This document shows positions 41,223-64,000 of a stretch of DNA of 64,000 nt, piece after piece. The notes under the pieces are model-generated. The model was given only the letters and a program-made list of their open reading frames with translations, did not search any database and had not been told where the DNA came from. The position numbers were made by a program, and so were the translations under genes. How positions within the stretch are numbered: position 1 is the first letter of the stretch; the number at the start of each line of letters is the position of its first letter. The DNA is from Chryseobacterium bernardetii (GTDB taxonomy: Bacteria > Bacteroidota > Bacteroidia > Flavobacteriales > Weeksellaceae). The stretch is taken from NCBI RefSeq assembly GCF_003815975.1, contig NZ_CP033932.1:5254635-5318634 (forward strand), written 5' to 3'.

Positions 41223-41253
41223 CAAAATATTAAAGAGTAAAGATTACAAAAAT

Positions 41254-41279
41254 AAAAACCACTTTAAAAAAGTGGTTTT
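41254..41279 (-). terminator. Terminator at the end of the polysaccharide locus
   Basis: Stem AAAACCACTT/AAGTGGTTTT with a short A-rich loop, followed on the minus strand by TTATTTTTG. It lies 12 bases past the rfbC stop and closes the 22-kb leftward gene run. Confidence 0.75.
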
Positions 41280-41291
41280 CAATATGATGCT

Positions 41292-41837
41292 TTAAAAGTT
41301 TTTTTCTTTGAAGCCAGGGGCATTCTGGTCTTTTTCTGAAAGAACAGCGTCTTTTTCATCAATTTTCCAGTCTATACCCAAGTCGGGATCGTTAAATTTC
41401 ACACTTCCTTCTGACTCTTTATTATAAAAGTTATCACATTTATAAGAGAACACAGCATGAGTGCTTAACACTGAAAAACCATGGCCAAAACCTCTTGGTA
41501 CATAAAGCTGTAATTTATTCTCTGCAGTAAGTTCTATTCCGAACCATTGTCCGAATGTAGGAGAATCTTCTCTAAGATCAACCGCCACATCCCAAACGCT
41601 TCCTTCAAGGCATGATACCAATTTAGCCTGTGCATGTTCTCCTTTTTGAAGGTGAAGTCCTCTCAATACCCCATAAGAAGATTTGGAAATATTATCCTGA
41701 ACAAAGTGTCCGTTCATTCCTGTAAGTTCTTCAAATTTTTTTTCATTGAATTTCTCAAAGAAGTAACCTCTATCGTCTTCAAATACAGTAGGCTCTATGA
41801 TATAGCAGTCTTTAAGCGGGGTTTCTTTAATTTTCAT
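41292..41837 (-). CDS. rfbC: dTDP-4-dehydrorhamnose 3,5-epimerase
   Basis: 181 residues, full length cupin fold. Third step of dTDP-L-rhamnose synthesis. Catalytic His62 (VLRGLHLQ) and the YVPRGFGHGF strand are present. The partner genes rfbA, rfbB and rfbD are not in the window. It is the last gene of the locus, 30 bases after the sugar transferase. A related nucleotide-sugar 3-epimerase role cannot be fully excluded. Confidence 0.92.
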   Translation of the reverse strand: MKIKETPLKDCYIIEPTVFEDDRGYFFEKFNEKKFEELTGMNGHFVQDNISKSSYGVLRGLHLQKGEHAQAKLVSCLEGSVWDVAVDLREDSPTFGQWFGIELTAENKLQLYVPRGFGHGFSVLSTHAVFSYKCDNFYNKESEGSVKFNDPDLGIDWKIDEKDAVLSEKDQNAPGFKEKNF

Positions 41838-41867: not shown

Positions 41868-42437
41868 TTAATTTAATATTTTGAAAAATGTTCTCCATAA
41901 TATTCTCAGATCTTCTTTGAAAGAAATATTTTCAAGATAATTCAAATTCAATTTTACTTTATCCGGAAATATGATATTGTCATTATATGACAGAGGATCT
42001 TTCTGAGCTTTTAGCAGAACATCTTCATTACTATATTTAATACTTGCTTCGGAGGTTAATCCTGGTTTTAATAGTAGAACTTTACGATCATCTCCTTTCA
42101 GGGTATCATAATATCCTTCAATATCAGGACGAGGTCCTACAAAACTCATATCTCCTTTTAAAATATTAAAGAGCTGAGGGAGTTCATCAAGTTTATACTT
42201 TCTGAGTACTAATCCTACTGAAGAACTTTTCCCTTTTTTAGGGTTAATTGTTTTTAATTTATAAATAATAAAAAGCTTTCCATTCTGCCCAACCCTTTTT
42301 TGAAAAAAAATACCATTAGATTGAGTATCCAGACTTGATATTATAAATAAAAGAATTAATAAAGGAAATAAAGGAAACAATAAAAGAATTGATAAAACAC
42401 AATCAAAAATAATTTTCCAAAACCTTCTGTAATTCAT
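41868..42437 (-). CDS. Initiating phosphoglycosyl transferase (PglC/WcaJ-like), first copy
   Basis: 189 residues. One N-terminal re-entrant membrane helix (about 8-35), then the catalytic domain with YKLKT, KYKLDELPQLFNIL (the Asp-Glu dyad) and MSFVGPRPD. Monotopic enzymes of this kind move a sugar-phosphate from a UDP-sugar to undecaprenyl phosphate and so start a repeat unit. After GPRP the sequence (PGLTSEASIKYSNEDVLL) differs from the second copy at 49644-50249. Ten bases separate it from the aminotransferase gene, suggesting that it uses that enzyme's product, an amino-dideoxy sugar. Confidence 0.88.
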   Translation of the reverse strand: MNYRRFWKIIFDCVLSILLLFPLFPLLILLFIISSLDTQSNGIFFQKRVGQNGKLFIIYKLKTINPKKGKSSSVGLVLRKYKLDELPQLFNILKGDMSFVGPRPDIEGYYDTLKGDDRKVLLLKPGLTSEASIKYSNEDVLLKAQKDPLSYNDNIIFPDKVKLNLNYLENISFKEDLRILWRTFFKILN

Positions 42438-42447
42438 CAGAAAATAA

Positions 42448-43584
42448 TTAACCTTTAAAAAACTTATGGATTACATTTGCAATCCTTTCTTTTTCTACTT
42501 CTGTAAGATTAGATCCTGATGGCAAACATAATCCGTTCTCGAATAATTTCTCGGAAATATTTGTGCCATAATACGGAGCATCTGCAAAAACAGGTTGTAA
42601 ATGCATTGGCTTCCAAAGCGGCCTTGATTCAATATTATCTTCTAAAAAGGCAAGTCTTAAGTCTTCTCTGTCCTTCCCTGTAATATCTGGGTTAACAATG
42701 ATTGCAGAAAGCCAATGATTGGAATAAAAATCTGAATTAGGTTCAGTGAGTACATCTACACCATCAATGTCTTTAAAAACAGCAACGTAGAAATCATGCA
42801 TTCTTCGTCTCGCTTCTACACGATTTTTCAGTACTTCCATCTGTCCTCTTCCAATACCCGCAACAATATTACTCATTCTGTAGTTAAACCCAATATGAGA
42901 ATGTTGATAGTGAGGTGCATTGTCTCTTGCCTGAGTAGACAGGAAAACCGTTTTATTTTTGTCTTCCTGAGTTTTACAAACTAAAGCTCCCCCACCTGAA
43001 GTGGTGATAATTTTGTTTCCATTAAAACTTAAAACACCAAAACGGCCAAAAGTACCACAAGATTGTCCTTTGTATGTTGAGCCTAAAGCTTCTGCAGCAT
43101 CTTCAATAATTGGGATCTGATATTCCTGAGCAATAGCACTAATCTCATCTATTTTTGCAGGCATTCCGTATAAATGAACAATAATGATAGCTTTAGGCTT
43201 TTTACCTTTTTGAATTCTGTCTTCAATTGCTTCTTTCAATGCTTTGGGGCAGATATTCCATGTATCCGGCTCACTGTCTACAAAAACAGGTATTGCTCCG
43301 CAATATGCAATAGGGTTAGCTGATGCAGAGAATGTCATAGACTGGCAGATTACTTCATCTCCGTGCTGTACATCACTTTCAATAAGAGCTAGGTGGAGCG
43401 CAGCTGTACCTGCAGAAAGAGCAGCCACTTTTGAGTTTTTCCCTAAAAATTTTTCCAGATCTTCTTCAAACCCGTTAACATTTGGTCCTAGTGGTGCTAC
43501 CCAGTTTTCTTCGAATGCTTCGTTGATATATTTTTGCTCGTTGCCTCCCATATGCGGTGAGGAGAGCCAGATTTTTGAATTCAT
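42448..43584 (-). CDS. DegT/DnrJ/EryC1/StrS (PglE-like) sugar aminotransferase
   Basis: 378 residues. PLP-dependent; Lys191 (SFNGNKIITTSGGG) forms the Schiff base and Asp162 in EDAAEALGS binds the pyridine nitrogen. The N-terminus (WLSSPHMGGNE) and overall length fit transaminases that make UDP-4-amino-4,6-dideoxy-GlcNAc (bacillosamine precursor) or related sugars. The 4,6-dehydratase that would make its keto-sugar is not in the window. Located between the oxygenase reductase and an initiating transferase. Confidence 0.88.
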   Translation of the reverse strand: MNSKIWLSSPHMGGNEQKYINEAFEENWVAPLGPNVNGFEEDLEKFLGKNSKVAALSAGTAALHLALIESDVQHGDEVICQSMTFSASANPIAYCGAIPVFVDSEPDTWNICPKALKEAIEDRIQKGKKPKAIIIVHLYGMPAKIDEISAIAQEYQIPIIEDAAEALGSTYKGQSCGTFGRFGVLSFNGNKIITTSGGGALVCKTQEDKNKTVFLSTQARDNAPHYQHSHIGFNYRMSNIVAGIGRGQMEVLKNRVEARRRMHDFYVAVFKDIDGVDVLTEPNSDFYSNHWLSAIIVNPDITGKDREDLRLAFLEDNIESRPLWKPMHLQPVFADAPYYGTNISEKLFENGLCLPSGSNLTEVEKERIANVIHKFFKG

Positions 43585-43593
43585 AATAATTGA

Positions 43594-44673
43594 TTAATAT
43601 TCGTCGTATGAAATGGTTAATTTTTCAGAGGTTGGAACAGACTGACAACTTAAAATAAAGCCTTCATTAATTTCGTAATCCATTAAAATATCAGTCTGCT
43701 TCATATCAACGGTGCCTAAAATCACTTTTCCTACACAACTGCTACAGTTTCCTTTTTTACATGAATATGGAACATCAAGTCCTTCATTTAATAAAGACTC
43801 AAGGATATTACTTTTATGATCTACAATTACATAATGAGATTCCTCGTTAATAATTACTTCAACTGTTGTCTTACCAGATTTTATTTCTTCAGATATTGTT
43901 TCTTCAATCCCTATTTCGCTTTCTAAAGAATAAAAAAGTTCACTTTTAATAATTTCTTTAGGGATTTCAATAGAAAGAAGATAATCATGAACACATTTGA
44001 TTAAATCTTCAGGTCCACAAGTATAATATTCTGAAAAGCTTTTTGTCTCTAATTCCTGCTGAATAATAGTATCCAGAAAAGCATGATCAATACGTCCAAA
44101 GTAGTAATTGTCATATTTTTTTTGACTAAAGATGTATATTACTTTTAAAGTCTCTTTAAACTGTGTTTCTAAAGATTTCAGTTGATTATAAAAAATAGCA
44201 TCTTCAATTTGCTTGTTAGCAAAAAGTAATGTAACTCTGCTTAAAGGTTCATTATTGAGAATATTTTTAACAATTGAAATAATAGGAGTAATTCCGCTTC
44301 CTGCAGCTACTAAAAAAACATTTTTGGCAGATTTGTCTGATAAATTATAAACAAATCTTCCTTCTGGTATGCTTACCTCCAAATGATCTCCTATTTCAAT
44401 TCTGTCTTTAATAAAGTTTGAGAATATTCCACCATCAATTGCTTTTACAACTACAGACAAGGAATGTTCTTCAGGACTTGTACAAATAGAGTAAGATCGT
44501 CTGATTTCCTTATTATTAATTTCACTTTTCAAAGTAATATATTGACCTGATTCAAACCTAAAATAATCCTTAAGGTCTTCGGTTACATCAAAAGTCAATA
44601 AAACAGCTTCATCTGTTAAAAATGACTTATCAATTACTTTGAGTTTATGAAATACATTTCTTATGTGTTCCAT
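43594..44673 (-). CDS. FAD/NAD(P)H reductase with C-terminal plant-type [2Fe-2S] (PaaE-like)
   Basis: 359 residues. FAD domain with RRSYSIC (about 62-68), NAD(P)H domain with AAGSGITPIISIV, then a plant-type ferredoxin domain whose ligands are Cys305, Cys310, Cys313 and Cys343 (YSCKKGNCSSC...LSCQS). Such reductases pass electrons to di-iron or Rieske oxygenases. A Rieske oxygenase is encoded two genes upstream in the same operon and is the obvious partner. The start overlaps the PglD-like stop by one base. Confidence 0.9.
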   Translation of the reverse strand: MEHIRNVFHKLKVIDKSFLTDEAVLLTFDVTEDLKDYFRFESGQYITLKSEINNKEIRRSYSICTSPEEHSLSVVVKAIDGGIFSNFIKDRIEIGDHLEVSIPEGRFVYNLSDKSAKNVFLVAAGSGITPIISIVKNILNNEPLSRVTLLFANKQIEDAIFYNQLKSLETQFKETLKVIYIFSQKKYDNYYFGRIDHAFLDTIIQQELETKSFSEYYTCGPEDLIKCVHDYLLSIEIPKEIIKSELFYSLESEIGIEETISEEIKSGKTTVEVIINEESHYVIVDHKSNILESLLNEGLDVPYSCKKGNCSSCVGKVILGTVDMKQTDILMDYEINEGFILSCQSVPTSEKLTISYDEY

Positions 44674-45320
44674 TAGAATATTTTTTTTGCAGGATTTCCT
44701 ACATAAGTTCCGGACTCTTTAATATTCCGAAAAACTACACTTCCTGCTCCAATGATTGTATTATCAGCAATTTTCACTCCCGGATAAATAGTAGAGCCTG
44801 TTCCAATCAATACATTTTTTCCTATTTTACAATATCCACCTAAGTCTACATTTGCCATGATATTAGTAAATTCATCAATAAAAACATCATGACCAACCTG
44901 GCTTCCGCAATTGATAAACACCCCTTTTGAAACCTCTGCATCACAGGATACTAAAGTATTGGGGAAAAGCACTACTGACTGATCTATTTTGGCTCTGTCA
45001 CCGATAATACAGGTGTGATGAACAAAACCTTGTATTTTTGAATGATCTGTATTAGAAAAAATATTTCTTTTTATAGAAGAATTATTGATTGCTAGCAGGA
45101 TACTTCCGTACTTATTTAAATCGTTATTTGACAATGAGTCAATTACTCTTAGGTCAATATCAAATTGATCCAAAGCAGCTATATTATCATCTACAAAACC
45201 TACAATGTTCGGAACAATGGCACCAAATTTACGGGAATGATTGATAAAGCTCAAAAGTTCTCTTCCAAAACCTCCAGCTCCAATAATTACGATTTCATTA
45301 CTGTACTGAATATCCTCCAT
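44673..45320 (-). CDS. PglD/NeuD-like hexapeptide acyltransferase
   Basis: 215 residues. N-terminal Rossmann-like sugar-nucleotide domain (VIIGAGGFGRELLSF) and a C-terminal left-handed beta-helix with catalytic His144 (GSQVGHDVF) and the closing VVFRNIKESGTYVGNPAKKIF. PglD N-acetylates the 4-amino group of UDP-4-amino sugars; NeuD-type members O-acetylate. Set among KAS III, ACP and reductase genes, it could take its acyl group from the ACP instead of acetyl-CoA (inference). The start overlaps the SDR gene by 23 bases. Confidence 0.88.
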   Translation of the reverse strand: MEDIQYSNEIVIIGAGGFGRELLSFINHSRKFGAIVPNIVGFVDDNIAALDQFDIDLRVIDSLSNNDLNKYGSILLAINNSSIKRNIFSNTDHSKIQGFVHHTCIIGDRAKIDQSVVLFPNTLVSCDAEVSKGVFINCGSQVGHDVFIDEFTNIMANVDLGGYCKIGKNVLIGTGSTIYPGVKIADNTIIGAGSVVFRNIKESGTYVGNPAKKIF

Positions 45321-46023
45321 CGATTATTATATTTTGACCTGTGATCCATTTTGAACCATCGGATATTAAAAATTTTATTGCCGGAACCACGTCTTCTGTT
45401 TTCCCTATTCCAAGAGGGTGCATTTCTACAATCTGCTTTACATTATCTTCATTCAACTGAGAAAATAGTTTTTGGGTCATTGGAGTATCCACCACTCCTG
45501 GCAATACTGCATTCACTCTTATTTTCCTTTTTGCAAATTCTAAAGCAGCTGATTTTACCAGACCTACTACAGCTGATTTTGTGGAACAATAACCAATTTT
45601 ACCTGGTTGTCCCAATACTCCCATTACTGAAGACATAAAAACGATGCTAGCTCCCTCGTTACTAAACTTTTTCTTTGTAAAATGTCTTAATAATTCAATT
45701 CCTGAAAATACATTAAGTTTATATATCCTTTCAATTTTTTCCGGATTATATAAAGTAAGCGGTACAGTTTCTTCCATACCAGCACAATGTACTAATGCAT
45801 CAAATTTCTCAGTAAAATCTAAATTTTTAAATAAATTTTCAATTTCCAAAACATCAGAAAGATCTAGAGAATAACAAATCACGTTATTCTTAGCTTCGTC
45901 CAAAAAATCTTGAATCTTTTCAAAATTCCTTGCTATGGCCACTATTTTATGTCCATCCTTTACAAGCTCTTTCATGGTTTCAAAGCCAATTCCTGAAGTA
46001 GCTCCAGTAAGAATAATATTCAT
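45298..46023 (-). CDS. SDR-family reductase, FabG-like
   Basis: 241 residues. Cofactor loop TGATSGIG (6-13), Asn104, Ser131/132, Tyr145 and Lys149 (YCSTK) make a complete classical SDR. The closing GSKWITGQNIIIDGGYS is the FabG-type C-terminus. Within an operon that also has an ACP and two KAS III enzymes, reduction of a 3-oxoacyl-ACP to the 3-hydroxyacyl form is the likely role. ATG directly follows the Rieske gene's stop. Confidence 0.9.
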   Translation of the reverse strand: MNIILTGATSGIGFETMKELVKDGHKIVAIARNFEKIQDFLDEAKNNVICYSLDLSDVLEIENLFKNLDFTEKFDALVHCAGMEETVPLTLYNPEKIERIYKLNVFSGIELLRHFTKKKFSNEGASIVFMSSVMGVLGQPGKIGYCSTKSAVVGLVKSAALEFAKRKIRVNAVLPGVVDTPMTQKLFSQLNEDNVKQIVEMHPLGIGKTEDVVPAIKFLISDGSKWITGQNIIIDGGYSVQ

Positions 46024-47100
46024 TTAATCAATGTATTTTTTATAATTTTTCTGAAATTCGCATACTCTTGCTTCTTCATCGCTTAACTCTCCAATAAAAG
46101 GTGATTTTTTTACACCAATCTGTACTTTTTCACAAATTGCTTTATCTTCATCAAAAACCTTTCTGTTAAAGCCTACTAATGACTGTTTGTAAATATTTTC
46201 TAAAGTAGGATTGGCTTTTTCCCCGTCTTTTTTGGTGAGGAAAACATAACTTACAAATCTTGAAGAATTACTATCAATAGGTGTAATATAGGATAGGTTA
46301 AAAGAAATTCCATATGTACTTGAAATCAATATATTTGGAAAAACAATAAGGTGTTTATATCCTGAGATTTTATATTCTCTATTTTGATAGGGTGAATGAA
46401 TTTTGGCATTTTTACCCTCATTCTCACCAGCCAGAAGGGTTGCATCCCAAACAGAATGTTCTTTAATAAAAGTAAACTCCATTCCTCCGGCTCCTAACTT
46501 TTTAAATGTTTCCTCGTGAATAAGATTTACGTGGTAGCTTTCTAAAGTATTTTCAACTAGAATTTTCCAATTGGCATGAATGTTCATTTCATTAACATCA
46601 ACCAACTCTCCAAAGTTACTACTCATTTTTTCAACTTCATCAAAAAGATCTCCCATAAAATCTTTTAACTCTGAAGGGTCATTGGAAAGATTAACAAAAA
46701 CAAGTTCTCCACAAAAATCTACTTTATAATCTTTAAGCTTTAAACACTCAAGCTCATCTTTTGTAAATTTAAATAAAGGCTTCTTTGGAATCCCTGTCGG
46801 TATTCCTTTATCATTGTATGCCCATCCATGGTAAGGACACATTAAAGGTCTGTTTCCTGACTTCTCAACCTGAATAATTGAGTGTCTGTGTGAACAAATA
46901 TTTTTAAAAGCCCTTATTGTCCCCTTACAATTTTGTACTACAACAGGAATCCCTCCGATATCTTGTGTAATAAAATCATTTTCTTCTTTTAAAAAAGATT
47001 TAAAACCTATAAAGCACCAAGTTTGCTGAAACAGAAGTTCATATTCTTTTTCTAAAACATCATTTTTATAGTAATGTTCGGGAAGTATTAATGCTTTCAT
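46024..47100 (-). CDS. Rieske non-haem iron oxygenase, alpha subunit
   Basis: 358 residues. Rieske ligands Cys69, His71, Cys88, His91 (CSHRH and CPYHGW); mononuclear iron ligands His190 and His195 (ESYHVNLIHEETF). The bridging acid between the two centres is Glu187, where most family members have Asp; Glu is known in the CntA/quaternary-amine group. It should activate O2 to hydroxylate or dealkylate a substrate with electrons from the PaaE-like reductase. Finding such an enzyme inside a polysaccharide acyl module is unusual; the substrate may be the ACP-bound chain or the sugar. Confidence 0.9.
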   Translation of the reverse strand: MKALILPEHYYKNDVLEKEYELLFQQTWCFIGFKSFLKEENDFITQDIGGIPVVVQNCKGTIRAFKNICSHRHSIIQVEKSGNRPLMCPYHGWAYNDKGIPTGIPKKPLFKFTKDELECLKLKDYKVDFCGELVFVNLSNDPSELKDFMGDLFDEVEKMSSNFGELVDVNEMNIHANWKILVENTLESYHVNLIHEETFKKLGAGGMEFTFIKEHSVWDATLLAGENEGKNAKIHSPYQNREYKISGYKHLIVFPNILISSTYGISFNLSYITPIDSNSSRFVSYVFLTKKDGEKANPTLENIYKQSLVGFNRKVFDEDKAICEKVQIGVKKSPFIGELSDEEARVCEFQKNYKKYID

Positions 47101-47102
47101 GT

Positions 47103-48131
47103 TTATATTTCTTTTAATGGTAAAATTTTTGTTTCTGATAAATTAATAATACAGTTCCCCCAAGATAACCCGGATCCATAACCACTACATAGAATTTTAC
47201 TTTTATTTTCAAGCAAATCTAAATTAGTGGAGATCAATAAAGGAATAGTTACTCCGCTTGTATTTCCGAAGCGCTCAATATTTACCGGAACTTTATTATT
47301 ATCTATTCCTAATATAGAACTTATCTGTTTGATGATAAACCTATTAGATTGATGGAAGAAAAAACCATCAATGTCTGCTAGATTCACTGATGATTCTTCT
47401 TCAATTTTTTTAATACTGGGAGCAACTTCCCTTAATGTAAAATCAAAGACCTTTGCTCCATTCATATTAAGATAAAGTTTTGATTCATTTTCAGAATCAA
47501 AACTATTCTTTGTGATATTTTTTCTATAACCTCCTTCAGGAATTATAATAGCTTCATGGTTAGCTCCATCTGAAAAGAAATTGAAATATGATTTATCTGC
47601 ATTACTATTTTTTGAAACCAAAATAGCGGAAGCAGCATCACCAAACAACATATTGGTACTTTTATCGTTGGGTGATAAAATCTTTGATAAGGTTTCTCCA
47701 ATGATTAATAATACTTTTTCTCCTTCTTTTAAAGTTGAAGCGATAGAAAAAGCAGTACTTAATCCTTGAATGAAACCTGCACAGCCTGCATTAACATCAA
47801 AACACAAAATTTCCTGTTGCAGTCCTAATCTACTCTGTAAAATATTGGAAGTAAAAGGAATTTTATAATCTGATGTCTGGGAAAGAAAAATAAGACTTTT
47901 AATTCTGTTTTTGTCAACCTGCTTCAATAATTCTTCTGCAGCTGCAAATCCCAAATCCGATGCAGTAACACCTTTATCTGCCCACCTTCTTTCTTTGATA
48001 CCAACTGTCTTTTCAAAAACTTTTATTTCTTTTTCTGTTAACAATGTTGAAAAAAAAGAATTCCCAACTGAATGAATCGGAACACTGGAACTGATATACT
48101 CTATCGAAACATTATTAAACTCCTGAAACAT
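47103..48131 (-). CDS. 3-oxoacyl-ACP synthase III (KAS III), first-listed copy
   Basis: 342 residues of the FabH fold. The catalytic triad is intact: Cys117 (NAGCAGF), His260 (FFFHQSN), Asn290 (RFGNTSG). KAS III condenses an acyl-CoA starter with malonyl-ACP. It lies two bases downstream of the ACP gene. It differs strongly in sequence from the KAS III at 48377-49387, so the two are not a recent duplication and may use different starters. It is unlikely to be the housekeeping FabH, given the locus. Confidence 0.88.
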   Translation of the reverse strand: MFQEFNNVSIEYISSSVPIHSVGNSFFSTLLTEKEIKVFEKTVGIKERRWADKGVTASDLGFAAAEELLKQVDKNRIKSLIFLSQTSDYKIPFTSNILQSRLGLQQEILCFDVNAGCAGFIQGLSTAFSIASTLKEGEKVLLIIGETLSKILSPNDKSTNMLFGDAASAILVSKNSNADKSYFNFFSDGANHEAIIIPEGGYRKNITKNSFDSENESKLYLNMNGAKVFDFTLREVAPSIKKIEEESSVNLADIDGFFFHQSNRFIIKQISSILGIDNNKVPVNIERFGNTSGVTIPLLISTNLDLLENKSKILCSGYGSGLSWGNCIINLSETKILPLKEI

Positions 48132-48133
48132 AA

Positions 48134-48364
48134 TTAATCAAATTTATCTTCTCCAATTCGTTCAACTAAAGAATTCACTGTTGTAATTTTAGCAATATCA
48201 TCACCGTTTAACAATACTCCAAAGTTATCTGATACAAAACCGATAAGGATCATCGCAGCCATAGAGTCCCATTCTTCTAATTGAGAAAGATCCGTTTCCG
48301 GAGTTAAACTAATTTCTAATTCTAATTCTTCTTGTAATTGTGATGTAAAATCTGCAATATTCAT
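48134..48364 (-). CDS. Dedicated acyl carrier protein
   Basis: 76 residues, acidic, with the phosphopantetheine site Ser34 in EEWDSMAAM. The canonical DSL motif is DSM here, as in many pathway-specific ACPs. It sits between the two KAS III genes, only 2 and 12 bases from them, so it is their likely carrier. No phosphopantetheinyl transferase is encoded in the window. Confidence 0.9.
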   Translation of the reverse strand: MNIADFTSQLQEELELEISLTPETDLSQLEEWDSMAAMILIGFVSDNFGVLLNGDDIAKITTVNSLVERIGEDKFD

Positions 48365-48376
48365 TATTTTATATTC

Positions 48377-49387
48377 TTAAAGTTTGTTATTTATTTTAAT
48401 TATTCCGCCTGACCAAGATAATCCTACTCCAAACCCTACAATTAACAGGCTGAGCTCTTTATTCTCTTTCAGACTTTCTGTATATCTTTTTAAAGCAATA
48501 GGAATTGTACATGAAACTGTATTCCCTCCATCAGACAGATCGTTATAAAAGTTTTCCTTATTTATTTTTATCCTTTTTCTAAGGAAATCTAGCATAAAAG
48601 AATTTGCCTGGTGGAATACAAATTGGTCAACTTGCCCTACTTCCATCTTATTCTCTTCCATAATCTCTTTCACAAAATTAGGAATAACTTTAGTTGTAAA
48701 ATTGAAAATTTCAGGGCCATTCATATATAAATGATTATCTGTATATATGTTATCTGTACCATATCCTATTTCCTCGGCATTCGGATCTAAAGGAAATCGG
48801 CTGCATCCATTTTTAATAATCAATTTATCATAGCCAGAGCCGTCTGTTCCAAACTTAAATTTAAGAATATTGTCCTCGTCCGTTTTGCTGATAAGTGTTG
48901 CTGTTGCTGCATCTCCAAATATAGATCTGTTTGTCTTATCTTTTGGATGAATAAATTTCGAATAAGTCTCAGCAGTAACCAATAAAACATTTTCTACTTG
49001 ACCAGATGAGATAAGCGCATTTGCTAAATTTACACCGTAAGTAAACCCAGAACATCCTAAATTGAAATCTAATGCTCCTATATCAGTCCTTAGTCCTAGT
49101 CTTTCCTGAAGAATACAGGCTGTTGTAGGTAGATAATATTCGGGGCTTTGTGTACAATATAGTATGTAGTCTATCTTTTGCTTATCAAAACTTTCAAACA
49201 ACTTACTACAAGCTTTTTCAGCAAGGTCTAATCCTGTTTCACTTTCTTTTACAATATACCTCCTTTTAATCCCTACTTTTTCTTCAAATCTTTCGAAGTC
49301 GTAATCGGGAAAATCTTTTTTCAAATCTTCATTTGTTACTACAGTTTCAGGAAATATATATTCTATTTTTTTTATTTGTGCTCCCAT
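48377..49387 (-). CDS. 3-oxoacyl-ACP synthase III (KAS III), first gene of the acyl module
   Basis: 336 residues. Catalytic Cys112 (NLGCSGF), His259 (FVFHQAN) and Asn289 (DGGNTVS) are all present. C-terminal GFGVGLSWSGGII closes the thiolase fold as in FabH. It is the first gene after a good promoter at 49569-49600 and precedes the ACP gene by 12 bases. Confidence 0.9.
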   Translation of the reverse strand: MGAQIKKIEYIFPETVVTNEDLKKDFPDYDFERFEEKVGIKRRYIVKESETGLDLAEKACSKLFESFDKQKIDYILYCTQSPEYYLPTTACILQERLGLRTDIGALDFNLGCSGFTYGVNLANALISSGQVENVLLVTAETYSKFIHPKDKTNRSIFGDAATATLISKTDEDNILKFKFGTDGSGYDKLIIKNGCSRFPLDPNAEEIGYGTDNIYTDNHLYMNGPEIFNFTTKVIPNFVKEIMEENKMEVGQVDQFVFHQANSFMLDFLRKRIKINKENFYNDLSDGGNTVSCTIPIALKRYTESLKENKELSLLIVGFGVGLSWSGGIIKINNKL

Positions 49388-49643: not shown

Positions 49644-50249
49644 CTAATTAAATCCATTAAAAGCTTCTGCTGTTGCCTGCCCTTCTTGAGAAATTCCTTC
49701 TTTTATAAATACTTTTTTTATAGTAAGGAAGAATATCTTTACATCCAAAAAAAAAGATAAATGATCTACATACCAAACGTCTAATTCGAATTTCCGTTTC
49801 CAAGATATTGCATTTCGTCCATTCACTTGAGCCCAACCCGTAATCCCGGGCCTAACTTCATGTCTTCGTTTTTGTTCCGAATTATATAATGGAAGATATT
49901 GAGGTAACAAGGGTCTTGGTCCTATTAATGACATATCACCTTTCAGAACATTTATTAATTGAGGAATCTCATCTAGGGAAGTTTTTCGTACAAAAGATCC
50001 AATTCCTGTCAAACGGTCAGCATCAGGTAATAAATTTCCATTTTTATCCTTTTTATCATTCATTGTCTTGAACTTAATAATACTAAAGACTTTTCCATTC
50101 TTACCAGGTCTTTTTTGGAAGAAAAAAGGTTTGCCCTGATTCGCAAAATACAAACCAATGGTAACCAGTAGGAAAATAGGACTTAAAATCAAGAAACCTA
50201 ATAATGCTAAAAAAAAATCAATTATTCTTTTAAAAACAGATTTATACAT
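49644..50249 (-). CDS. Initiating phosphoglycosyl transferase (PglC-like), second copy
   Basis: 201 residues. Membrane helix about 8-35, [21 protein letters not shown] (Asp-Glu dyad), [17 protein letters not shown] and [18 protein letters not shown], the textbook PglC/WbaP C-terminal-domain sequence. It starts repeat-unit assembly on undecaprenyl phosphate. It follows the glycosyltransferase genes of the upstream half of the locus (gap 4 bases) and differs from the copy at 41868-42437. Confidence 0.92.
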
Positions 50250-62263: not shown

Positions 62264-63256
62264 TTATGTTAATTTTTTATTGGATAAATTTTCATAAATA
62301 TCCTTCACATTTTGAGCTTTTTCTCTTTTCAGCACTAATATTGCATCATCAGTAACAACTAAAATACTTTTTTTAAGTCCCAAAAATTCTGTATGAACAT
62401 TTGTTCCAATTACCATATTCCCATGCTCATCTGTTGAATAACCGTTCTTCTTTAAATAACTGTATAGAGACTCAAAAGATCCCATATCAGACCATTTAAA
62501 ATTCGACTTCACTACTTTCAATAGGTCAGTCTTCTCCATTACTGCATAGTCTACAGATATAGAAGGAATATTCATACTCTCTTCAATAGGCAATCTATCT
62601 TTATTTCTTGCATTAAAGGCAATCTCAGATTTTATATAAACATCAGGTTGGTATTTTTTAAGCTCTTTTAAGAAAATATCTGCTTTAAAACAAAACATTC
62701 CCGAATTCCATAAAAAATCACCTTTAGATATAAATTCTTGTGCAGTCTCCTTATTGGGTTTTTCTCTAAATCCAACCACATTATTACCTTTTACCTGAAT
62801 ATAGCCAAACCCAGTTTCAGGTTTAGTAGGAACCAGCCCAAATGTAACAATAGAGTTTTGTTTCGCCAAATTAATGGCTTCGTTAACAGATCTTATATAC
62901 TCATCTTCATCTTCTATTAGATGGTCAGAGGGTGTAATAAGTAAAATATCATCTTTATCTGCTGAAAACGCAGCAAAAGCTATAGCTGCTGCTGTATTTC
63001 TTGGGGAAGCTTCTACTATTTGTTGATATTGCCGGATATCAATCTCTCTTAACGCTTTTGAAGACAATTCGAAATTATCAGTATTACCTATCACAGTTAA
63101 TGTATCACATAAACTAATATTTCGAATTGCTGTTAACTGAAAAAGTGATTTCTCTCCAAAAATATTCAGATATTGTTTTGGTTTATTTTTTCTGGATAAT
63201 GGCCAAAGCCTACTACCCACTCCTCCGGAAAGTATTACATTAATAATCTTAGGCAT
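62264..63256 (-). CDS. manC: Mannose-1-phosphate guanylyltransferase
   Basis: 330 residues. Nucleotidyltransferase loop LSGGVGSRLWPLSRKNKPKQY (9-29, in part), TPSDHLI, GYIQVKG, FREKPN and WNSGMFCF. It makes GDP-mannose, precursor of mannose, fucose or perosamine residues. It lacks the C-terminal phosphomannose-isomerase domain of longer ManC proteins. The start overlaps the kinase stop by one base. Confidence 0.93.
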   Translation of the reverse strand: MPKIINVILSGGVGSRLWPLSRKNKPKQYLNIFGEKSLFQLTAIRNISLCDTLTVIGNTDNFELSSKALREIDIRQYQQIVEASPRNTAAAIAFAAFSADKDDILLITPSDHLIEDEDEYIRSVNEAINLAKQNSIVTFGLVPTKPETGFGYIQVKGNNVVGFREKPNKETAQEFISKGDFLWNSGMFCFKADIFLKELKKYQPDVYIKSEIAFNARNKDRLPIEESMNIPSISVDYAVMEKTDLLKVVKSNFKWSDMGSFESLYSYLKKNGYSTDEHGNMVIGTNVHTEFLGLKKSILVVTDDAILVLKREKAQNVKDIYENLSNKKLT

Positions 63257-64000
63257 TACAATCTTTCTTTAATTTTTTCCAGCCAGTTTTTTTCTTGAGC
63301 CGAGTAACCATAACCATATTTGTTGCCGTATCCATAATAATTTTTATCAACATCATTAAGTACAAAACCTACATTCTTAATTTTTTGGCTATCAATATTA
63401 TTATTAGCAAACTCAATAAGAGATTTTTCAGTATATCTAGACCTTGTAACGTATAATGTAGCATCAGCTAAATCTGCAAATAAGAAAGTATCCGTCACTA
63501 ATAATAAAGGTGCTGTATCTATAACAATATAATCATATTTAGCCCTCAGATTATCTAATAACTCTTCATATCTTCCATTGCTTAACAGCTCTGTTGGATT
63601 CGGTGGAATCATCCCTGAATAAATCACATCACAATGCGGATTAAATGAAGTAACATGTATTATATCTTCTAATTTAGTCTGATCCGAATATAAATACTCT
63701 GTCAAACCTGTTAAGCCTCTTCTTGATGTATTATAACGTTGAAGTTGGGGGTTTCTAATATCTGATCCTATAATAATCACTTTCTTTTTAGGAGTCGCTA
63801 ATGTCAAAGCTAAATTAACAGACACAAAAGTTTTTCCTTCTCCTTTGACTGAGGAAGTAACAAAAACAACTTTTCCTTTATCCTTTTTGGGTAGTAAAAA
63901 ATTCATGTTAGTAATCAAAATACGGAAGGCTTCAGCCATTGGTGAAAGGTCATTAACCTGTACAATATCCGAATCCCCTTTCAAAACGCTTGGTAATTCG
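63256..64000 (-). CDS. Wzc-like tyrosine autokinase, C-terminal part (runs off the window)
   Basis: About 248 codons are visible and the frame stays open to base 64000, so the transmembrane and periplasmic Wzz parts lie outside. The BY-kinase domain is clear: Walker A TSSVKGEGKT, Walker A' VIIIGSDIRNPQL, Walker B YDYIVIDTAPLLLVTDT, preceded by SPMAEAFRIL. The tail has a Tyr/Gly cluster (NYYGYGNKYGYGYS), the autophosphorylation site. It controls chain length and export of the polysaccharide. A TTG at 63984 is internal, not a start. Confidence 0.93.
   Translation of the reverse strand, partial: ELPSVLKGDSDIVQVNDLSPMAEAFRILITNMNFLLPKKDKGKVVFVTSSVKGEGKTFVSVNLALTLATPKKKVIIIGSDIRNPQLQRYNTSRRGLTGLTEYLYSDQTKLEDIIHVTSFNPHCDVIYSGMIPPNPTELLSNGRYEELLDNLRAKYDYIVIDTAPLLLVTDTFLFADLADATLYVTRSRYTEKSLIEFANNNIDSQKIKNVGFVLNDVDKNYYGYGNKYGYGYSAQEKNWLEKIKERL

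Follow-up and report, generated by a model that had tools for sequence, protein, structure and literature searches.

The window analysed here is a stretch of 64,000 nucleotides from Chryseobacterium bernardetii (contig NZ_CP033932.1, positions 5,254,635 to 5,318,634). Its positions 42448-49387 hold a compact block of eight minus-strand genes, in which a Rieske non-heme iron oxygenase lies among the genes of an acyl-synthesis module with a dedicated acyl carrier protein (ACP). Judged from sequence, the block is best explained as a wfp-type, ACP-based N-acyl module, of the kind published for Flavobacterium psychrophilum, with an added Rieske monooxygenase. This enzyme probably hydroxylates a short 3-hydroxyacyl chain, most likely on ACP. 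Its sequence falls in a single Rieske clade that is tied to acyl cassettes.

Gene content of the block and the Rieske oxygenase

In the open reading frame (ORF) list of the window, the genes are separated by gaps of at most 12 bp or overlap by at most 23 bp; from the first 3-ketoacyl-ACP synthase III (KAS III) gene through the aminotransferase gene, the intergenic distances are 12, 2, 2, 0, −23, −1 and 9 bp. Families were assigned by Pfam and NCBIfam profile scans of the block proteins and by a PDB sequence search for selected proteins:

48377-49387, minus strand: KAS III number 1 (WfpC-like), which opens the cassette, 336 aa (Pfam, NCBIfam)
48134-48364, minus strand: dedicated ACP, 76 aa (PF00550, 30.5 bits against a cut-off of 20.8; no NCBIfam match)
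47103-48131, minus strand: KAS III number 2 (WfpE-like), 342 aa (Pfam, NCBIfam)
46024-47100, minus strand: Rieske non-heme iron oxygenase, alpha subunit only, 358 aa (PF00355, PF00848)
45298-46023, minus strand: short-chain dehydrogenase/reductase (SDR), FabG-like ketoreductase, 241 aa (Pfam, NCBIfam)
44673-45320, minus strand: PglD/VioB-type hexapeptide N-acyltransferase, 215 aa (TIGR03570, 164.3 bits against a cut-off of 160.8; PDB 3bss)
43594-44673, minus strand: PaaE-like FAD/NAD and 2Fe-2S reductase, 359 aa (Pfam; TIGR02160, 306.1 bits over the whole length, under the curated PaaE cut-off of 420.8)
42448-43584, minus strand: PglE/LegC-type sugar aminotransferase (DegT-type), 378 aa (PF01041; TIGR04181, 392.6 bits, under the LegC-family cut-off of 420; PDB 1o61/4ztc)

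All ten proteins scanned passed the Pfam gathering cut-off of the expected family. NCBIfam pointed to the same kinds of family, yet its equivalog cut-offs were mostly missed. The adjacent KAS III, ACP, second KAS III, SDR and PglD-homologue genes that characterize a wfp-type module are all present, and the two KAS III proteins share 34% identity. The earlier note had described eight adjacent leftward genes followed by a PglC-like transferase gene, with the catalytic residues in place; ORFs, Pfam and PDB matches bore out the former, and the translations and the Rieske alignment the latter. Read by eye against the motifs as we take them to be, both KAS III proteins carry Cys-His-Asn, the ACP DSM, the SDR Ser-Tyr-Lys, the PglD-like enzyme GHD and the aminotransferase its pyridoxal phosphate Lys. 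A scan of the window for promoter-like sites gave 56, against a mean of 47.9 in shuffles, and was uninformative.

The Rieske protein contains the Cys/His ligands and the His-His-Asp triad of a Rieske non-heme iron oxygenase, together with the PF00355 and PF00848 domains. In the alignment of its clade, C69, H71, C88, H91, H190, H195 and D319, which make up the cluster ligands and the triad, are present in 61 of 61 members, and the bridging position E187 is Glu in 60 of them. GbcA (NF058607) was the best NCBIfam match, though at 100.8 bits the protein lies far under the curated cut-off of 670 for that family. Among the window proteins scanned, none matched a Rieske beta-subunit family in Pfam or NCBIfam.

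A Rieske clade tied to acyl cassettes

A quick maximum-likelihood tree was built from 113 Rieske proteins with at least 290 aligned residues each, leaving out 18 shorter matches, one locus that is a copy of another (L195, of L050) and 12 later-fetched Burkholderia-type loci. Rows were labelled as cassette rows when a KAS III and an SDR gene lay within 7 kb by chosen score cut-offs. All 52 cassette rows (51 loci; 30 rows from Flavobacteriales) fell in one clade of 61, with a Shimodaira–Hasegawa-like approximate likelihood ratio support of 99; the clade also holds four rows with a partial cassette and five bare ones. Outside it, none of the 52 rows had a KAS III, ACP, PglD, GNAT, SDR, aminotransferase or reductase match within 7 kb, and 35 of them had at least 5 kb of sequence on both sides. 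A careful tree of 66 rows (40 in the clade, 26 outside) gave the same split with support of 100/95, and the window protein was inside the cassette-linked clade in both. Near-copies are frequent among the rows, and those outside the clade are no more than the next-best matches, so the trees tie this clade to the cassette and do not speak for the whole Rieske world. As for the 18 short matches, one lies in a cassette (L067, a metagenome-assembled genome (MAG) of Gemmatimonadaceae), eight are pieces of split oxygenases and nine are without cassette genes.

Gene neighbourhood was scored for the 56 Rieske genes of the clade that have a cassette or part of one. In 31 of them, KAS III and SDR flank the Rieske gene as its direct scored neighbours (same strand, within 600 bp); counted singly, KAS III is a direct neighbour in 33 and SDR in 38. 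A Paraburkholderia monticola locus (L066, 5899-7011 and 10351-11493) contains two Rieske genes of the clade.

Cassettes were located by a contig scan with five Rieske proteins, from which the best 80 loci of at least 497 relatives were considered. In an ORF search with the window proteins, KAS III, ACP or PglD matches surround many of the best Rieske loci, with none from L077 onward. The whole block, including the reductase and PglC-like genes, is kept in the same order in three other genomes of the genus (L169-L171), with KAS III proteins 90-92% identical, which is more conservation than expected by chance. KAS III number 1 is 70% and 63% identical to the cassette KAS III of two related genomes, G810 and G604. 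The window order recurs in Flavobacterium sp. CF136 (63% identity), as WcaJ-like, KAS, ACP, KAS, Rieske, SDR, PglD and aminotransferase genes, and Massilia sp. CFBP 13721 has KAS, ACP, KAS, Rieske, SDR and PglD. The genes travel together in many genomes, so the refutation that the earlier note had named, genes not travelling together, did not come about.

The distribution is patchy, and most genomes of the genus are without the block. The Rieske gene was found in 0 of 58 same-genus genomes of a first draw, and a later draw, made by KAS III, gave the three genomes above and G604. Across 395 genomes of the class, the strain's own among them, matches longer than 100 residues outside that genome did not exceed 31% identity to the window Rieske protein. 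The cassette is represented in Bacteroidota, in alpha- and beta-proteobacteria, and in MAGs of Gemmatimonadota and Vampirovibrionales, at O-antigen-type, flagellin (viosamine) and pseudaminic-type loci.

In Burkholderia glumae, plasmid pBGF3 carries flagellin, fliD, fliT, a tetratricopeptide repeat protein, vioA, KAS III, ACP, a split second KAS III, SDR, acetyltransferase, Rieske and LysE genes in a row. The second KAS III (L017, 9459-10560) is in two frames; L251, whose Rieske protein is identical, has a single and fuller KAS III match there. At E ≤ 1e-50, one family draw had the B. glumae-type Rieske protein in 5 of 145 genomes; at E ≤ 1e-60, it was in 10 of 378 genomes of a second family draw and, within the B. 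glumae genus, in 5 of 65. Flagellar genes are within reach at 8 of the 12 later-fetched loci that have it. PDB entry 3gwa, a KAS III that we take to be from Burkholderia pseudomallei, matched the B. glumae cassette KAS III with 617.6 bits; it was set aside and is not used as evidence.

Azospirillum brasilense Sp7 has, on plasmid p3, pseG, SDR, KAS III, Rieske, SDR and GNAT genes, then pseI, ACP and a ligase, and the Asticcacaulis and Acetobacter loci resemble this arrangement. In the Azospirillum loci (L019, 13630-15245; L062; L063), another oxygenase, divided between one gene for the Rieske domain and one for the catalytic domain, stands beside SDR and GNAT genes. The pairing of acyltransferase and sugar genes varies accordingly: PglD with PglE/PglC in the window, VioB with VioA by the Burkholderia flagellin genes, and GNAT with PseG/PseI in Azospirillum. 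Since the cassettes lie in such differing sugar loci, the constant partner of the Rieske gene is the acyl machinery and not the sugar.

A survey blind to the Rieske gene was made by searching KAS III number 1 in 395 genomes of the order and 378 from the genus of G810. The former gave 41 genomes at E ≤ 1e-70 (49 rows), from which 20 stretches were hand-picked to cover the kinds found; the latter gave 35 genomes at E ≤ 1e-75 (36 rows), all taken in. Among 54 loci, 28 had Rieske within 7 kb, each of them together with two KAS III genes (28/28), six had two KAS III genes without Rieske, and 20 had one KAS III gene without Rieske. Two of the loci are short contigs (L181, L224), and in L222 a Rieske gene and a second KAS III lie 7-9 kb off. 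A wfp-like order without Rieske was seen in L204 and L205.

Other variants were met on the way. Flavobacterium cassettes (L174-L177, L207-L220) carry one of two distant Rieske types, scoring 166-192 or 423-432 bits to that of the window, in an otherwise equal locus, and the type correlates with the gene order, KAS-Rieske-SDR or KAS-SDR-Rieske. At G000:C1:1536809 (L184, 8804-10049), flanked by glycosyltransferase and hexapeptide acyltransferase genes, the window genome has a second KAS III (56% identical to number 1) paired with an ACP. KAS III-ACP pairs, mostly with SDR, recur across numerous genomes of both genus and family (L136-L155), with no Rieske match in the 4-kb stretches examined.

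Proposed route and alternative substrates

The genes around the block provide the sugar context. On the same strand, the PglC-like and RmlC genes come next after the eight genes:

41868-42437, minus strand: PglC-like phosphoglycosyl transferase, 189 aa (PF02397; PDB 8e37)
41292-41837, minus strand: RmlC-type epimerase (PF00908)
41253-41281: terminator-like hairpin, after RmlC
49644-50249, minus strand: second Bac_transf phosphoglycosyl transferase (PF02397), upstream, with a 256 bp gap to KAS III number 1

A Bac_transf transferase gene adjoins KAS III number 1 in several related loci too. In the PDB sequence search, the nearest solved structures to the aminotransferase were 1o61 and 4ztc (319 and 316 bits), which we take to be PglE, and those to the PglD-like acyltransferase were 2npo, 2vhe and 3bss (85 bits each), the last being UDP-N-acetylbacillosamine N-acetyltransferase; 8e37, matched by the PglC-like protein, is a diacetylbacillosaminyl-1-P transferase. 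Upstream within the window lie GLF, ManC-like nucleotidyl transferase, Wzx-type flippase and EpsG-type polymerase genes. The window is the final 64 kb of a single contig; if this contig is circular, genes for a UDP-sugar dehydrogenase, an export protein and a PF02719 dehydratase come directly after it, the last being the PglF-like gene (L259, 3898-5826; 393.7 bits), which is near the block only in that case. From these Pgl-type matches and the surrounding genes, the block belongs to a polysaccharide locus that has a route of Pgl type to UDP-Qui2NAc4N. With the PglF-like and PglE-like genes and the PglC-like transferase, this predicted route is complete, provided that the contig is circular. 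The earlier note's idea of a private-ACP route to a short 3-hydroxyacyl group on a 4-amino-4,6-dideoxy sugar is supported.

Two further features were seen in this locus: a pectate-lyase-like protein (PF12708; 52194-53903) amid the glycosyltransferase genes, and an export protein of chain-length/tyrosine-kinase type (by eye) that seems to span both contig ends in two open frames (63256-63999 and L259, 107-1612), which may be real or an assembly effect.

From these sequences we infer the reactions in the strain, including the hydroxylation and where on the chain it falls, its ACP stage and the pairing with the reductase. KAS III number 1 would condense acetyl-CoA with malonyl-ACP, and the SDR would reduce the product to 3-hydroxybutyryl-ACP; KAS III number 2 would extend the chain once more, and a second reduction by the SDR would give 3,5-dihydroxyhexanoyl-ACP. 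The Rieske enzyme, with electrons from the adjacent reductase, would then introduce a single hydroxyl into the chain, most likely at the ACP-bound stage. Transfer of the chain by the PglD-like enzyme would go to the 4-amino group of UDP-Qui2NAc4N, itself a product of PglF-like and PglE-like activity; the sugar phosphate would pass to the lipid carrier by way of the PglC-like enzyme, for a Wzx/Wzy-type polysaccharide. The predicted product is a trihydroxyhexanoyl-type group, 15.995 Da heavier than that of F. psychrophilum. The earlier note had expected two condensations with ketoreductions to give exactly the F. psychrophilum kind of chain, which leaves the oxygenase unused; with it, a further oxygenated chain is predicted. 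A flagellin mass of 291.1 Da in B. pseudomallei (PMC3958885, PMC4365494) matches Qui4N plus trihydroxyhexanoyl (291.132), but a Neu5Ac residue is 291.095, and the match was set aside and is not counted as evidence.

The PaaE-like reductase is the probable electron donor of the Rieske enzyme. Its gene is present in all four same-genus loci of the window type and, on the opposite strand, inside the rearranged G604 cassette; the genomes of L050, L051 and L069 have a PaaE-like gene elsewhere. A dedicated reductase as a defining part of the cassette was rejected, as none was seen in most related cassettes.

The main competing explanation is that the Rieske enzyme hydroxylates the N-acyl group after its transfer, on the nucleotide sugar. 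CMP-Neu5Ac hydroxylase (CMAH), a Rieske enzyme, oxidises the N-acyl group of a nucleotide sugar in this way, and a PglD-type gene is the only near same-strand scored neighbour in 9 of the 56 genes. Against it, KAS III and SDR are the commoner direct neighbours, and they are common to loci whose sugar routes differ (PglE/PglC, VioA, PseG/PseI), so that post-transfer hydroxylation is considered unlikely. Oxidation of the sugar ring or of the amine, instead of the acyl chain, is less probable still: sugar-nucleotide genes do occur in the same loci, but one Rieske clade accompanies unrelated sugar routes, with KAS III and SDR as the common genes. The weakest alternative, a plain 3,5-dihydroxyhexanoyl group with the Rieske/reductase pair as passenger or inactive, may draw on the Rieske-less cassettes of similar order (L204, L205) and is very improbable, given that ligands and triad are kept in every clade member and that the gene stays with the cassette across phyla. 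The constancy of KAS III and SDR, while the sugar genes and the acyltransferase fold vary, points to the acyl chain as the substrate.

Several observations weigh against the proposed hydroxylation of the carrier-bound chain. Five clade members have no cassette gene nearby (L054, L056, L064 on a 5 kb contig, L065 and L018), although L056 adjoins PseI and L018 has a KAS III 12 kb away. Eight of the short Rieske matches, outside the tree, belong to a second oxygenase, which is split and adjoins cassettes in L019, L062, L063 and L070. No reductase was seen in the Flavobacterium cassettes examined, so the Rieske-reductase pairing is not general. Rieske genes stand with a single KAS III within 7 kb in L053, in L066 and in the pseudaminic-type loci L020, L057, L059, L060, L062 and L070. 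After correction for kinship, the link between Rieske and two KAS III genes comes down to three supported pairs with a median p of 0.5, and significance is out of reach. A rule that Rieske needs two KAS III genes, which holds in 28/28 loci of the Flavobacteriales survey, fails outside it (e.g., L053) and is kept only as a hint.

More broadly, a distinct Rieske family may act on acyl chains of dedicated ACPs, oxygenating short 3-hydroxyacyl groups with which surface sugars as different as Qui2NAc4N, viosamine and pseudaminic acid are N-acylated, at O-antigen-type and flagellin loci in several phyla; this is put forward tentatively, at slightly less than even chances. If so, carrier-bound acyl chains would join the substrates of Rieske enzymes, and trihydroxyhexanoyl- or dihydroxybutyryl-type decorations are predicted at these loci. 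Glycan chemistry would become predictable from gene content, with 15.995 Da more at loci that have the Rieske gene. Since cassettes exist naturally both with and without it, the hydroxylation claim is directly testable.

Relation to known systems

Among Rieske enzymes, carnitine monooxygenase CntA ranked third and fourth among 47 PDB profile matches, at 154.6 and 153.7 bits, and is one of five PDB entries matched to the profile end, beyond position 335. CntA-type enzymes hydroxylate aliphatic carbons. CntA and the glycine betaine monooxygenase GbcA are Rieske oxygenases like the window protein, but have a different gene context. CMAH is a Rieske enzyme acting on the N-acetyl group of CMP-Neu5Ac; likened to it by this general description only, the window enzyme may similarly oxygenate the acyl group of a surface sugar.

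The gigX island of Xanthomonas presumably holds a gene row of the XCV2007-XCV2013 type. This row, next to fleQ, lists Rieske, acetyltransferase, two SDR, 3-oxoacyl-ACP synthase, ACP and aminotransferase genes (gene table of PMC3826837). It differs from the window in its single KAS III and flagellar context, the likeness comes from the gene list alone, and that table gives no function for the Rieske gene (PMC3826837). The earlier note had not seen an oxygenase tied to this pathway; it recurs in many genomes, and this table already has it in such a row. In X. oryzae, a ten-gene gigX cluster is reported in reviews to determine flagellin glycosylation.

The viosamine island of Pseudomonas syringae (vioA, vioS, acp, vioR, vioB), linked to N-(3-hydroxybutyryl)-viosamine, resembles the block in its KAS III, ACP, reductase, acyltransferase and aminotransferase (PMC3927599). 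It differs in its dTDP sugar, its one KAS III and the methyltransferase VioM, and its gene table has no oxygenase (PMC3927599). In the openly licensed literature, no paper was found that gives a Rieske enzyme a role in this pathway, and one may be described elsewhere; in PMC12322963, the one occurrence of the word Rieske is an expression-table entry beside halobenzoate dioxygenase.

The closest system is that of F. psychrophilum, where the acyl group on Qui2NAc4N is 3,5-dihydroxyhexanoyl and is assigned to wfpC-wfpG: wfpC and wfpE as 3-ketoacyl-ACP synthases, wfpD as ACP, wfpF as reductase and wfpG as PglD homologue, with a proposed route like type II fatty acid synthesis (main text of PMC6519341). 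The earlier note had drawn this link as an analogy; the link holds, and goes further, as the same gene set is in print. The window shares the two KAS, the ACP, the reductase, the PglD homologue, the Pgl-type sugar genes and the PglC homologue, and adds the Rieske oxygenase and a reductase, the word Rieske being absent from that main text. The KAS III-ACP-KAS III-SDR-PglD core is therefore not new. F. psychrophilum strains that differ in the genes for this N-acyl group (R-group) differ in lipopolysaccharide antigenicity (PMC6519341), and an oxygenase that recurs in the acyl-ACP module would add to such variety. Relative to the published wfp core, the new element is the recurrent Rieske oxygenase.

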